A DNA stretch of 64,000 nt from Magnetovibrio sp. (lineage in GTDB: Bacteria > Pseudomonadota > Alphaproteobacteria > Rhodospirillales > Magnetovibrionaceae), in the NCBI GenBank assembly GCA_026196495.1, contig JAPHSY010000020.1:62001-126000 (forward strand), given 5' to 3'. The position numbers and the translations under genes were made by a program. The stretch's first letter is position 1. Each line of letters begins with the position of its first letter. The notes beneath the pieces are model-generated. The model searched no databases and was not told the origin of the DNA. It saw only the letters and a list, made by a program, of their open reading frames with translations. Positions 25,014-43,989 of the stretch are shown here, one piece after another.

Positions 25014-25496
25014 ATGCCTACTTTTGTCTATATGACACGATGCGACGGCTGCGGACACTGCGTTGATATCTGCCCGTCTGACATCATGCACATCGATACG
25101 ACCTATCGTCGTGCTTACAACATCGAGCCGAACATGTGCTGGGAATGCTATTCCTGTGTAAAAGCTTGCCCACAGAACGCGATTGACGTTCGCGGCTATG
25201 CTGACTTTGCACCGCTCGGTCACAGCGTTCGCGCTGTCCGTGATGAGGAAAAAGGCGTCATTGCTTGGCGCATTAAGTTCCGCAACGGCGAAAAAGATCT
25301 GAACCTTTTGGCTCCGATCACCACGAAACCTTGGGGACAGCACATTCCTCAATTGAAGAATGCTCCGGAACCGACTCAAGAACAACGGGACAGCCAGCTT
25401 CTGTATAATGAACCGAAATACATCCGCATGGATGACGGTGACATTCATACTCTGGAATCCAATGGTCTCGAGATGAAGGTAGGGGTGCAGTACTAA
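25014..25496 (+). CDS. aprB: Adenylylsulfate (APS) reductase, beta subunit
   Basis: Iron-sulfur subunit of dissimilatory APS reductase, carrying electrons between the FAD of AprA and the membrane. 160 residues, normal length. The two [4Fe-4S] sites are CDGCGHCVDICP near residue 11 and CWECYSCVKACP near residue 43. YNIEPNMCWECYSCVKACPQ lies in the conserved second cluster region, and the C-terminal tail (ILY...MKVGVQY) is the part that wraps AprA in known structures. The ribosome site GGAAGGAAAC lies before the ATG. Its stop overlaps the aprA ATG (TAATG). Confidence 0.95.
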   Translation: MPTFVYMTRCDGCGHCVDICPSDIMHIDTTYRRAYNIEPNMCWECYSCVKACPQNAIDVRGYADFAPLGHSVRAVRDEEKGVIAWRIKFRNGEKDLNLLAPITTKPWGQHIPQLKNAPEPTQEQRDSQLLYNEPKYIRMDDGDIHTLESNGLEMKVGVQY

Positions 25497-27382
25497 TGGC
25501 TTATAAAACTATCGTCGAAGACAATATCGACATTCTCGTCGCCGGTGCTGGCCTTGGTGGTACTGGTGCCGCATTCGAATCCCGCTACTGGGGTAAGAAC
25601 AAGAAGATCGTTGTTGCTGAAAAAGCAAACATCGACCGTTCTGGTGCTGTTGCTCAAGGTCTGTACGCTATTAACTGCTACATGGGTACGCGCTTTGGTG
25701 AGAACAACCCGGAAGATCACGTGCGTTATGCTCGTATCGATTTGATGGGCATGGTTCGTGAAGATTTGCTGTTTGACATGGCTCGCCACGTTGACTCTGC
25801 AGTTCACCAATTCGAAGAGTGGGGCATGCCGATCATGCGCGACTTGGAGAAGGGTTCCTTCCTACGTGAAGGTCGCTGGCAGATCATGATCCATGGTGAA
25901 TCTTACAAGCCGCTCGTTGCTGAAGCAGCAAAGAAATCGGCTGACAAGGTTTACAACCGCGTATGCATTACGCACCTGCTGATGGATGAAGCCAAAGAAA
26001 ACCGCGTTGCCGGTGCTGTTGGTTTCAACGTTCGCACGGGTAACTACCACGTATTCAAATCCAAAACTGTGGTTTGTGGCGCTGGTGGTGCATCCAACCT
26101 GTTCAAGCCGCGTTCCGTTGGTGAAGGCGCTGGTCGTGTTTGGTACGCTCCGTGGTCCTCTGGTTCTGCTTATGCGTTGATGATCAACGCTGGCGCAAAA
26201 ATGACCCAGATGGAAAACCGTATCGTTCTGGCTCGCTTTAAGGACGGTTACGGCCCTGTTGGCGCATACTTCTTGCACCTCAAGGCATATACCCAAAACG
26301 CATATGGTGAAGAATACGAATCCAAGTGGTTCCCCGCCCTGCAAAAAATGGTCGGTAAAGAATACTTGGATCCGGAACTGTCCCACGCAACCCACCGTCC
26401 GATCCCGACTTGCTTGCGTAACCACGCAATCATCAACGAGGTCAACGCTGGCCGTGGTCCGATCCATATGATCACCATGCACTCCTTCCAAGATCCACAT
26501 CTGGAAGAAATTGGTTGGCACAACTTCTTGGGTATGACCGTTGGTCAGGCTGTTCTTTGGGCTGCTACGGACGTTAATCCGAAGTACGAAAACCCTGAAC
26601 TGACCACGTCCGAACCGTACGTTATGGGTTCCCACGCTACCGGTTGCGGTGCATGGTGCTCCGGTCCGGAAGATGTCTCTCCGCCTGAATATCAATGGGG
26701 TTACAACCGCATGATGACCGTCGAAGGTCTGTTCGGTGCTGGTGATGCTGTTGGTGGTACGCCGCACGCGTTCTCTTCCGGTTCCTTTACCGAAGGTCGT
26801 ATTGCTGCGAAAAACGCTTGTAAGTACATTGATGACGGTAAAGCCGAAGGTATCCGCGTTTCAAACGCCACCATCGAACGTCTGAAGGAAGAAATCTTCA
26901 AGCCGATGGAACACTACAAGATCCATCGTAACGACATCGTGGCTGGTGAAGTTAACCCGAATTACCACAACCCGCGTCAGTCTCTCGACCGTCTGCAAAA
27001 ACTGATGGACGAATACTGCGGTGGTGTAACGGTTAACTACATGACCAACGACAAACTACTGAGCATTGGTCTCAAGAAACTCAAGATCATGGAAGAAGAT
27101 CTCGAGAAGATTGCGGCTAAGGACCTTCACGAACTGCTGCGTGCTTGGGAAGTTAAGCACCGTCATCGTACGTCCGAGTGTGTTATGCAACACACCTTGT
27201 TCCGTAAGGAAACACGTTGGCCGGGTTACTACTACCGTGGTGACGCCATGCAGCTGAACGATGATGAGTGGCACGTTTTGACCGTGTCCCGTCGCGATCC
27301 GCAGACTGGCGAATACACCATGGAGAAAGCTCCATTGTATCACTTGGTTGACACAGACGAAAAAGCTGCTGCAGCTGAGTAA
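25496..27382 (+). CDS. aprA: Adenylylsulfate (APS) reductase, alpha subunit
   Basis: Catalytic flavoprotein that interconverts APS and sulfite plus AMP; in sulfur oxidisers it works in the oxidative direction (sulfite to APS). 628 residues, typical. The FAD-binding N-terminus is VAGAGLGGTGAAFESRYW, followed by NIDRSGAVAQGLYAINCYMGT, a highly conserved active-site region. RGPIHMITMHSFQDPHLEEIGWHNFLGMTVGQAVLWAA and GSHATGCGAWCSGPEDVSP are also family hallmarks. Translation is probably coupled to aprB. Codon use is unusually even, as in highly expressed genes. The terminators at 27394-27474 end the operon. No sat or Qmo genes are nearby. Confidence 0.96.
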   Translation: MAYKTIVEDNIDILVAGAGLGGTGAAFESRYWGKNKKIVVAEKANIDRSGAVAQGLYAINCYMGTRFGENNPEDHVRYARIDLMGMVREDLLFDMARHVDSAVHQFEEWGMPIMRDLEKGSFLREGRWQIMIHGESYKPLVAEAAKKSADKVYNRVCITHLLMDEAKENRVAGAVGFNVRTGNYHVFKSKTVVCGAGGASNLFKPRSVGEGAGRVWYAPWSSGSAYALMINAGAKMTQMENRIVLARFKDGYGPVGAYFLHLKAYTQNAYGEEYESKWFPALQKMVGKEYLDPELSHATHRPIPTCLRNHAIINEVNAGRGPIHMITMHSFQDPHLEEIGWHNFLGMTVGQAVLWAATDVNPKYENPELTTSEPYVMGSHATGCGAWCSGPEDVSPPEYQWGYNRMMTVEGLFGAGDAVGGTPHAFSSGSFTEGRIAAKNACKYIDDGKAEGIRVSNATIERLKEEIFKPMEHYKIHRNDIVAGEVNPNYHNPRQSLDRLQKLMDEYCGGVTVNYMTNDKLLSIGLKKLKIMEEDLEKIAAKDLHELLRAWEVKHRHRTSECVMQHTLFRKETRWPGYYYRGDAMQLNDDEWHVLTVSRRDPQTGEYTMEKAPLYHLVDTDEKAAAAE

Positions 27383-27518: not shown

Positions 27519-27872
27519 ATGAATATAATTGAACATACGGATGATGAAATTCTGGAAGTTGCCGAGCCCATGTGGACGGAACTCATCAGAGCGTCCAACG
27601 ATGGTGAATACGGAAAATTCATCCGCAATTTTCACTACAGTCTGATGCAAGGCTTGAATGAAGTCGAAGTTGGAAAGCAATTTGCGAAAAGCGAACTGAC
27701 CCGCAGCCTCTCTGAAGTTTATGACTTTCTTGGTCTGATTCGACGTGGTGAACACGTCTCGGTCTTGTATCGAGTTCGCAGCACCAAAAAAGAAGGTGAA
27801 TGGCTCGGCCGTTTGGTTCTGGGTTATGATGATAATGATATCATCAAGATCTATGGCGCCTCCGTCTTTTAA
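27519..27872 (+). CDS. Hypothetical protein (possible NTF2-like fold)
   Basis: 117 residues. Helical start (EILEVAEPMWTELIRASNDGEYGKFIRNFHYSL) and a beta-strand-like end (GEHVSVLYRVRSTKKEGEWLGRLVLGYDDNDIIKIYGASVF). This layout recalls small NTF2/SnoaL-like domains, but I see no diagnostic motif. GAGGA lies upstream of the ATG. It follows the apr terminators and precedes a SlyD-like gene by 41 bases, so it is probably cotranscribed with that gene rather than with apr. Confidence 0.65.
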   Translation: MNIIEHTDDEILEVAEPMWTELIRASNDGEYGKFIRNFHYSLMQGLNEVEVGKQFAKSELTRSLSEVYDFLGLIRRGEHVSVLYRVRSTKKEGEWLGRLVLGYDDNDIIKIYGASVF

Positions 27873-27913: not shown

Positions 27914-28429
27914 ATGACCGAAACCATCAAAGATGACAAGTTCGTCGAGCTTTCCTACAAGGTGATCGACAAAAAGACTGGCGAAAAACTGATCGCGGTT
28001 GAATACCCGATTGGCTATGTGCATGGACAAGATTGCGCCCTGGACACAAGCGTCACGTCGGAATTGAAAGGCAAGAAAGCGGGCGACGTTATCGAGGTTC
28101 CTATTGATTGCAATACGCTCTATGGACCGCGCGATGAAACCTTGGTCTTTACTGATAAGATTGAGAACGTTCCCGAAGAATTCCGCGAAGTCGGCACCAC
28201 CATCACCATGGAGAATGAAAAGGGCGAGCCCCGTAATTTCATCGTGACCCGTATGGATGACGAGACCCTTACGGTTGATGGCAACAATCCACTCTGTGGC
28301 CGTTTTGTTATCTTCAAACTGGAAGTTCTAACCGTTCGTGATGCCACAGATGAAGAAATTGAATATGGTGGCGCGATCGAAGCTGAGCCGGATATTGATA
28401 CGTCTCTCACGCGACCAATTGATGGATGA
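27914..28429 (+). CDS. SlyD-like FKBP-type peptidyl-prolyl isomerase
   Basis: 171 residues with a SlyD-type FKBP domain. Hallmarks: VELSYKVIDKKTGEKL at the start, the FKBP/insert-in-flap segment, and VDGNNPLCGRFVIFKLEVLTVRDATDEEIEYG at the C-terminus, which matches the DGNHPLAGxxLxFxVEV motif of SlyD. The His-rich metal tail of E. coli SlyD is missing. The protein could help folding or metal-cofactor assembly for the nearby apr products, but that is inference. A terminator hairpin follows at 28531. Confidence 0.85.
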   Translation: MTETIKDDKFVELSYKVIDKKTGEKLIAVEYPIGYVHGQDCALDTSVTSELKGKKAGDVIEVPIDCNTLYGPRDETLVFTDKIENVPEEFREVGTTITMENEKGEPRNFIVTRMDDETLTVDGNNPLCGRFVIFKLEVLTVRDATDEEIEYGGAIEAEPDIDTSLTRPIDG

Positions 28430-34039: not shown

Positions 34040-34112
34040 ACAACTGTATGGTGAGACGAAATTCTGGAAATCCTTAAAAAGACGCACTATATTAGTCCCG
34101 ACTGATATACGT

Positions 34113-34130
34113 GGCCATGCAAACATGGCC
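34113..34130 (+). promoter_or_regulatory. Leader hairpin before the DsrC/TusE-like gene
   Basis: Perfect 7-bp stem GGCCATG/CATGGCC with a 4-base loop, about 50 bases before the start codon. It is not followed by a T-run, so it is not a simple terminator. Confidence 0.3.
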
Positions 34131-34180
34131 TGTAACCGCAGAAAATGTGGTGTAGACAATGAAAAGACAGTGAGGATTTT

Positions 34181-34510
34181 ATGGCTTACAAAGATTTGGA
34201 ACTGACGGAAAAAGGTTTCTTGGTCAATATTGAAGACTGGAACGAAGAAGTTGCTGCTGAAATTGCCGCAACAGAAGATATTCCGGAAATGACCGACAAA
34301 CATTGGGATTTGGTAAAGTTTTTGCGTGATGAATACATCAACAACAATGCCAACCAGCCCAACGAACGCAAAATGGTGAAAGCCATGGGCGAAATTTGGG
34401 GTGCTAAGCCGTCCACCAAGGATCTGTATGCTTTGTTCCCGATGCAGCCGTCCAAACAAGCCACCAAAATTGCAGGCCTGCCAGAAACCAAACGCAAGGG
34501 TGGCTACTAA
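34181..34510 (+). CDS. DsrC/TusE-family protein lacking both conserved cysteines
   Basis: 109 residues of the DsrC/TusE family, small sulfur-carrier proteins. Typical features are MAYKDLELTEKGFLVNIEDWNEEVA, EMTDKHWDLVKFLRDEY, and the C-terminal KPSTKDLYALFPMQPSKQATKIAGLPETKR. In canonical DsrC the CKIAGL cysteine and the penultimate cysteine (GCV end) form the trisulfide. Here the first is replaced (QATKIAG) and the end is KGGY, so no cysteine is present at all. It therefore cannot carry persulfide by the known mechanism and may be regulatory or structural, as proposed for cysteine-less family members. A terminator follows at 34532. Confidence 0.88.
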   Translation: MAYKDLELTEKGFLVNIEDWNEEVAAEIAATEDIPEMTDKHWDLVKFLRDEYINNNANQPNERKMVKAMGEIWGAKPSTKDLYALFPMQPSKQATKIAGLPETKRKGGY

Positions 34511-34531: not shown

Positions 34532-34567
34532 AAAAATCCCTCGTCCAAGTGGCGGGGGATTTTTTTT
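34532..34567 (+). terminator. Terminator after the DsrC/TusE-like gene
   Basis: A 12-bp stem with one T-G pair (AAAAATCCC... with GGGATTTTT) is followed by a T-run. Confidence 0.75.
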
Positions 34568-43908: not shown

Positions 43909-43989
43909 TATGGCGGGGTCCAATTTTAGTTGCGCTGTTGCTAATATAAGATGGTTATGCCGTTGTTTCCAGAGGCACGGCGGATTTGT

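Follow-up and report, generated by a model that had tools for sequence, protein, structure and literature searches.

The gene at positions 34181-34510 of the stretch analyzed here (the window, 64,000 nucleotides of a Magnetovibrio sp. contig) encodes a member of the DsrC family devoid of cysteines, and raises the question of what such a protein may do. Many marine, symbiotic and phototrophic bacteria use the Dsr pathway as a main route of sulfur oxidation in the cytoplasm.

A DsrC-family protein free of cysteines

The features of the locus, all on the + strand, are as follows.

34064-34095, +: promoter-like element CTGGAAA-N17-TATATTAG, found by consensus scan and shared by the eight upstream regions aligned from the genus and family, the window's among them
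34088-34109, +: imperfect palindrome TATATTAGTCCCGACTGATATA, a candidate operator, in 7/8 aligned upstream regions
34172-34176, +: ribosome-binding site GAGGA, present without exception in the eight upstream regions aligned
34181-34510, +: cysteine-free DsrC-family reading frame, 109 aa, ATG to TAA, analyzed by profile, fold, tree and selection
34463-34465, +: codon of T95, which replaces the upstream redox cysteine (KQATKIAG)
34493-34507, +: codons of the RKGGY tail, residues 105-109, in which G108 replaces the penultimate cysteine
34532-34564, +: terminator-like hairpin followed by a T run, starting 22 bases past the stop codon

The protein (MAYKD...GLPETKRKGGY) has zero cysteines, and both profile cut-offs and fold place it in the DsrC/TusE superfamily. 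Residues 3-102 match the Pfam DsrC model PF04358 with 114.1 bits (E 5.2e-33, cut-off 24.9), and TIGR03342 is matched with 95.6 bits (cut-off 53.5). The AlphaFold model, obtained from a 57-row alignment, is helical (mean pLDDT 89.1; the last nine residues average 64), and all 7 PDB matches at E <=0.001 are DsrC-family chains, headed by A. vinosum DsrC (1yx3, TMq 0.80). Profiles, model and the T95 and G108 replacements agree with the first-pass annotation, which had described a DsrC/TusE fold with its flanking motifs and both cysteine positions changed.

The window protein resembles DsrC in fold, length, Pfam/TIGR family, the arm up to GLP and the sulfur-oxidizer genome context. It differs from DsrC proper in that the two arm redox cysteines are missing (T95, G108) and the tail is two residues longer, RKGGY standing for TGCV; RKGGY proteins moreover have N, Q and W at three body positions and form a separate clade. 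The stretch KQATKIAGLP is identical to that of E. coli TusE (L234), with T at the upstream cysteine position. TusE identity is nevertheless ruled out, as the terminal cysteine is absent (G108) and the TusE equivalog model gives 77.8 bits against a cut-off of 191; the distribution, which follows dsrA, also sets the protein apart from TusE. The name RspA, reportedly proposed by Venceslau in 2014 for cysteine-independent proteins of the DsrC superfamily suggested to be regulatory, would apply to the window protein under this definition, since it is of the DsrC superfamily and its redox cysteines are absent. Cysteine-less DsrC homologues were known already, according to a passage of PMC4287430.

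The two objections that the first-pass annotation had foreseen, a frameshift and an unrelated family, do not hold. The window protein and the 16 relatives aligned with it end in the same column, with RKGGY, and neither alternative frame beyond the tail gives a DsrC-type ending. The dN/dS values are 0.03-0.18 (15 pairs from six sequences of the genus, dS being saturated in several), and by this estimate the gene is under purifying selection. Common tail end, dN/dS and other frames together rule out a frameshifted or decaying DsrC copy. Membership of an unrelated family is ruled out by the Pfam match, the fold search and the tree described below, which all lead to the DsrC family.

Proteins ending in RKGGY were found in 17 of 150 genomes (the relatives set, the window's own genome included; 61 carry PF04358), and 15/17 lack any cysteine. 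One more genome, G035, has a looser GKGGY form. In this set, 60 regions of non-canonical PF04358 places were taken, the 9 left out including none in the profile range of RKGGY members. A profile-derived scan was also run on named GTDB genomes, some of which are shared with the relatives set. The best 80 of its 131 loci all encode the RKGGY ending (80/80), with no cysteine at all in 70/80, the penultimate cysteine absent in 80/80 and the upstream one in 78/80; hosts are Magnetovibrio, Magnetospirillum, other alphaproteobacteria, Halorhodospira, Thiohalomonas, Sedimenticola, SUP05/Thioglobus and Bathymodiolus symbionts. In one gammaproteobacterial order, RKGGY ends 16/16 complete proteins of one additional set (another protein is cut by the contig end) and 18/18 of a second; copies far from dsrA have it in 4/4. 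Two RKGGY proteins, L114 and L117, do have the upstream redox cysteine (QACKIAGLPETKRKGGY), possibly as an intermediate or by regain.

In a tree of 89 family members, calculated with the tail columns removed, RKGGY proteins form one clade (support 94/98), within which the alphaproteobacterial members are a subclade (96/99). The tree has few columns, TusE is one long branch in it, and its deeper branch order favors neither DsrC nor TusE as the nearer. No clade row has a different complete tail, and the G035 protein lies outside on a long branch. The window protein, with its RKGGY ending, falls in this cysteine-less clade, which answers the call of the first-pass annotation for a phylogenetic comparison. 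Set against 34 DsrC rows, 119 rows of the clade differ in the body at N55 (92%), Q59 and W73, and in the tail at R105, K106, G108 and Y109, the tail columns being circular here because rows were chosen by tail.

Other kinds of DsrC-family proteins were met in the same searches. A second cysteine-less kind, ending KTKGEH (KGEG in L195; L184, L185, L189, L195), is one clade (100/99), and accompanies the RKGGY protein in gammaproteobacteria and in one Magnetospirillum-type genome. A kind ending RPRxWSTG retains only the upstream cysteine (L048, L049:3743-4297, L054:6758-7147, L073:3793-4134, and others); in L049, L054 and L073 its gene and the RKGGY gene are 0.4-3.2 kb apart, on opposite strands.

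Association with dsrA, Cas6-like genes and phages

A search of the window's own genome with PF04358 found three genes, the window gene among them. As surmised in the first-pass annotation, a cysteine-bearing DsrC is encoded elsewhere in the genome: the second gene is a canonical two-cysteine DsrC beside dsrA and dsrB, on another contig than the window, in a dsr cluster reading dsrAB, dsrEFH, dsrC, dsrM, K, L, J, O, P (ORFs by eye). The third (L003:1501-1797, minus strand, 99 aa, two cysteines) ends ICKWGGLPKPTGCV, and the short two-cysteine kind that it exemplifies is one clade (100/99). No regulator gene is obvious by the dsr cluster, ORFs being read by eye, except a LysR-type gene ~23 kb from dsrA. 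APS reductase, with which the organism had been credited, is present as well: the alpha subunit gene spans 25496-27382 (TIGR02061, 1071 bits), ~7 kb upstream of the window gene, and the ORFs preceding aprA read, by eye, as aprM and aprB. The gene preceding the window gene is a DUF2336 gene. Just past aprA, a gene without Pfam or NCBIfam family is found at 27519-27872, and one resembling, below cut-off, an FKBP-type prolyl isomerase at 27914-28429.

All 17 RKGGY carriers among the 150 genomes belong to the 61 with dsrA (17/17; Fisher 5e-8), and in the order of Sedimenticola, 195 genomes, 172 carry the family and 172 carry dsrA (164 both, 8 and 8 only one of them, 15 neither; Fisher 1.7e-11), both tests being inflated by relatedness. 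Carriers in the latter set were called at profile E <=1e-30, 5 being counted from the genome table; dsrB is above cut-off in 5 of the 8 carriers without dsrA, the genomes to which the dsrB search was confined. The protein is absent from 44/61 dsrA-bearing relatives in the window's order, so the oxidative Dsr pathway can do without it, and it would tune rather than enable.

In the Sedimenticola order the genes are also linked. Among 167 listed places, at least 135 are in genomes with dsrA, at least 95 on the same contig and at least 85 within 8 kb of it. Among the matches listed, all copies within 8 kb are head-to-head with dsrA (85/85; median 3.6 kb), and a further 10 on the same contig are separated from it by 10.8 kb to 1.66 Mb. 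SUP05-type loci and A. vinosum do not have the RKGGY gene next to dsrA; in the latter it is ~310 kb away, the Cas6-like and helical-repeat genes remaining by dsrA. The DsrC of this A. vinosum genome agrees with the 1yx3 stretch compared.

These two genes are found, in the gammaproteobacterial order, between the RKGGY gene and dsrA, on the strand of the RKGGY gene. The Cas6-like protein matches PF09559 with 177 bits, and is below the Cmx6 equivalog cut-off (95.2 vs. 98.85); the helical-repeat protein has no Pfam or NCBIfam family, and no PDB match at E <=0.001. Cas6-like genes reside in 15/17 and 17/18 loci examined of the Sedimenticola order, and 20 of the best 80 named loci, all of these 20 gammaproteobacterial, have one in their 6-kb flanks. 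In a genome search they were found in 6/6 gammaproteobacterial RKGGY carriers vs. 0/12 alphaproteobacterial ones; in a SUP05-type Bathymodiolus symbiont (G152) the gene is ~8.6 kb from the RKGGY gene. PF09559 has no match in the window's own genome, and the relatives gave 0/60 in a search without a ringing positive control. A Cas6-like partner thus lacks support in alphaproteobacteria as a general explanation (0/60; 0/12 with the 6/6 control), and the gammaproteobacterial cassette order (helical-repeat, Cas6-like, RKGGY, head-to-head dsrA) is not seen around the window gene. No direct repeats of a CRISPR array were detected near the Cas6-like gene in three loci, at the settings used. An orphan Cas6-like gene and a helical-repeat gene are neighbors of dsrA in many sulfur-oxidizing gammaproteobacteria, A. 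vinosum among them (L170:5153-5809, L285:1433-2134, and others).

An RKGGY protein is also encoded by a 13.9-kb IMG/VR contig (L243:5998-6315), the one confirmed among 31 candidate stretches. Its gene sits amid phage-type genes (endonuclease, nucleotide-kinase-like), directly 5' of the one with nucleotide-kinase-like PHROG matches. With the phage protein as query, INPHARED phages gave 3 records, all <60% identity; plasmids gave 15, none of them reaching 60% identity to the window protein, and those with an annotation are TusE. A survey of phage DsrC proteins reports, in a passage of PMC8190135, 5 with neither cysteine motif, vs. 23, 112 and 1 with both or one.

The upstream region and a palindrome shared with dsrA

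The gene had been credited in the first-pass annotation with its own leader, candidate promoter and terminator. A leader, a promoter-like site and a terminator-like hairpin can indeed be seen, and the promoter-like element is repeated throughout the eight upstream regions aligned, the window's included, being weakest in L057. The consensus taken alone does not carry the claim, as promoter-like site and hairpin are each at chance level (1 found against a mean of 0.8 in shuffles). Another exact copy of the CTGGAAA-N17-TATATTAG element, with no palindrome, precedes a different open frame of the window (43941-43972, minus strand).

The palindrome lies over the -10 of the promoter in 7/8 aligned regions from the window's genus and family. 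A pattern derived from these sites matches upstream of dsrA in 6/6 genomes of the genus, with 3 mismatches each, and the dyad ATATTA-N8-T(A/C)ATAT is found upstream of dsrA in 13/13 genomes of the family (one with a mismatch). With a matrix built from the clade's own sites only, the dsrA sites of the genus score 17.9-20.0, and no unrelated position of the 64-kb window exceeds 9.2; in a wider background, which took in loci chosen for pattern matches, unrelated positions reach 19.8. Best dsrA-upstream scores in seven more family genomes are 8.4 (two), 15.1, 18.5, 19.9 (two) and 20.9. At <=3 mismatches the composite pattern has 3-14 matches per genome in six genomes of the genus, vs. 0-3 for the reversed control. 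In the window's genome the match is weak (6 vs. 3, the window's site being itself a 3-mismatch match), and the argument rests therefore on the genus. By eye, the palindrome is absent from 10/17 upstream regions in the window's order. On this comparison of sequences, the promoter of the RKGGY gene and the dsr promoter have the palindrome in common in the window's genus.

The leader contains a hairpin, GGCCATG-caaa-CATGGCC (window 34105-34129). Folding z-scores are below -2 in only 2/7 leaders (window -3.2, L054 -2.3; the others -1.6 to +1.3), and a general leader structure is thus not claimed. The search for known RNA families in or near the leader gave two Rfam matches, both far below the gathering score.

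Proposed function and alternatives

Co-occurrence, head-to-head linkage and the shared palindrome tie the RKGGY protein to the Dsr system, as judged from genome sequences. A regulating or competing role toward the cysteine-bearing DsrC, suggested in the first-pass annotation, would go further than this tie. Having no cysteines, it cannot take up sulfur as DsrC or TusE do, and the invariant tail is on the arm that in DsrC reaches partners, which argues for a binding role. In the reading that we favor, with a probability of about 0.45, it would serve the oxidative (reverse) Dsr system as an accessory devoted to it and dock, as we infer, on a partner of DsrC. It would occupy the surface by which DsrC binds this partner, most likely rDsrAB, otherwise DsrEFH or DsrMK. 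The redox-inert arm, two residues longer, would lie where the DsrC arm goes, and turnover might be raised or throttled, or the enzyme shielded when loaded DsrC is scarce. The arm up to GLP is also found in E. coli TusE, whose host has no dsrAB match, and hence does not by itself indicate DsrAB.

DsrD is a small non-catalytic modulator of DsrAB, according to passages of PMC10591310 and PMC11406059, the former calling it typical of reductive lineages. The RKGGY protein may be compared to it as another small non-catalytic protein of the dsr system. The proposed parallel is of function only: no relation in fold or sequence was found, and the RKGGY clade is found in sulfur-oxidizer lineages. If docking is true, oxidative Dsr would have a non-catalytic modulator of its own. 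A bolder version, which we regard as doubtful, would see in the clade an overlooked accessory subunit of alpha- and gammaproteobacterial oxidative Dsr, the DsrD counterpart of oxidizers and a mimic of the arm, whose tail, placed in the DsrC channel of rDsrAB, would set activity or direction; it would be co-expressed with dsr, tied in gammaproteobacteria to a domesticated Cas6-like protein, and carried by phages to steer host sulfur oxidation.

Some of the same evidence could be read in favor of a DNA-binding regulator of dsr genes, a RspA in the regulatory sense, which would use a helix-turn-helix-like portion of its fold to bind near the dsr promoter: in one gammaproteobacterial order the gene adjoins dsrA and is divergent from it, and A. 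vinosum DsrC is said to bind DNA (Grimm, 2010). Transcription regulation by DsrC is mentioned as a putative role in PMC7787665, in a passage that cites a 2014 review. Against such a role, the window protein is acid (pI 5.04) and the clade is no more basic in kind than DsrC (median net charge -4 in 119 rows vs. -6 in 34), conservation is highest in the arm tail rather than in a DNA-facing helix, and the fold search reaches DNA-binding folds (RosR, Fur and LmrR among them) only at E >1. A regulator seems to us unlikely. Still less probable is an RNA-directed device, formed with the Cas6-like and helical-repeat proteins and aimed at dsr or tRNA transcripts. The frequency of the Cas6-like gene (15/17 and 17/18 loci, 20 of the best 80 named, and 6/6 gammaproteobacterial genomes, including non-adjacent cases) would fit this; its lack in alphaproteobacterial carriers (0/12, where the control rings) and in relatives (0/60, where no control rings), and the ~310 kb that in A. 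vinosum separate the RKGGY gene from the pair by dsrA, do not.

The invariance of the GGY ending recalls ThiS-like proteins, which carry sulfur as thiocarboxylate; trimming of the terminal Tyr would expose a Gly-Gly end able to carry sulfur. The fold is that of DsrC and not ubiquitin-like, neither an activating enzyme nor a protease for the trimming was recognized in the neighbour families read or scanned, and the first G of the pair is found in DsrC too (TGC), all of which makes such a carrier very improbable. Equally remote is a cysteine-free scaffold of TusE type for tRNA thiolation, suggested by the KQATKIAGLP identity to the E. coli protein and contradicted by the profile score (77.8 vs. 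191 bits), by the tree, which does not join the two (TusE being one long branch), and by a distribution tracking dsrA. Loss of both cysteines might finally denote a functionless, decaying or frameshifted DsrC; given the invariant tail in two classes, the dN/dS of 0.03-0.18 and other frames giving no cysteine-bearing ending, this explanation, already refuted above, can be practically dismissed.

Apart from docking, the clade is now defined by its tail, by a Dsr-linked distribution and, in one genus, by a promoter element. Clade, tail, linkage to dsr and Cas6-like genes, promoter element and phage copy did not turn up in the open-access literature searched. The RKGGY gene of A. vinosum DSM 180 (chromosome ~1,749,514-1,749,849, minus strand) makes the question of function directly testable, as this laboratory organism has a genetic system. 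Four extra DsrC-family genes of A. vinosum are named in a passage of PMC3368242, and position suggests that Alvin_1508 is the RKGGY gene. A passage of PMC13137333 places three dsrC/tusE genes of a lucinid symbiont in the group of its most transcribed genes; by its number, one of these is 11 genes away from the DsrC that adjoins TusB, and the analogous gene order suggests that it could be the RKGGY gene.
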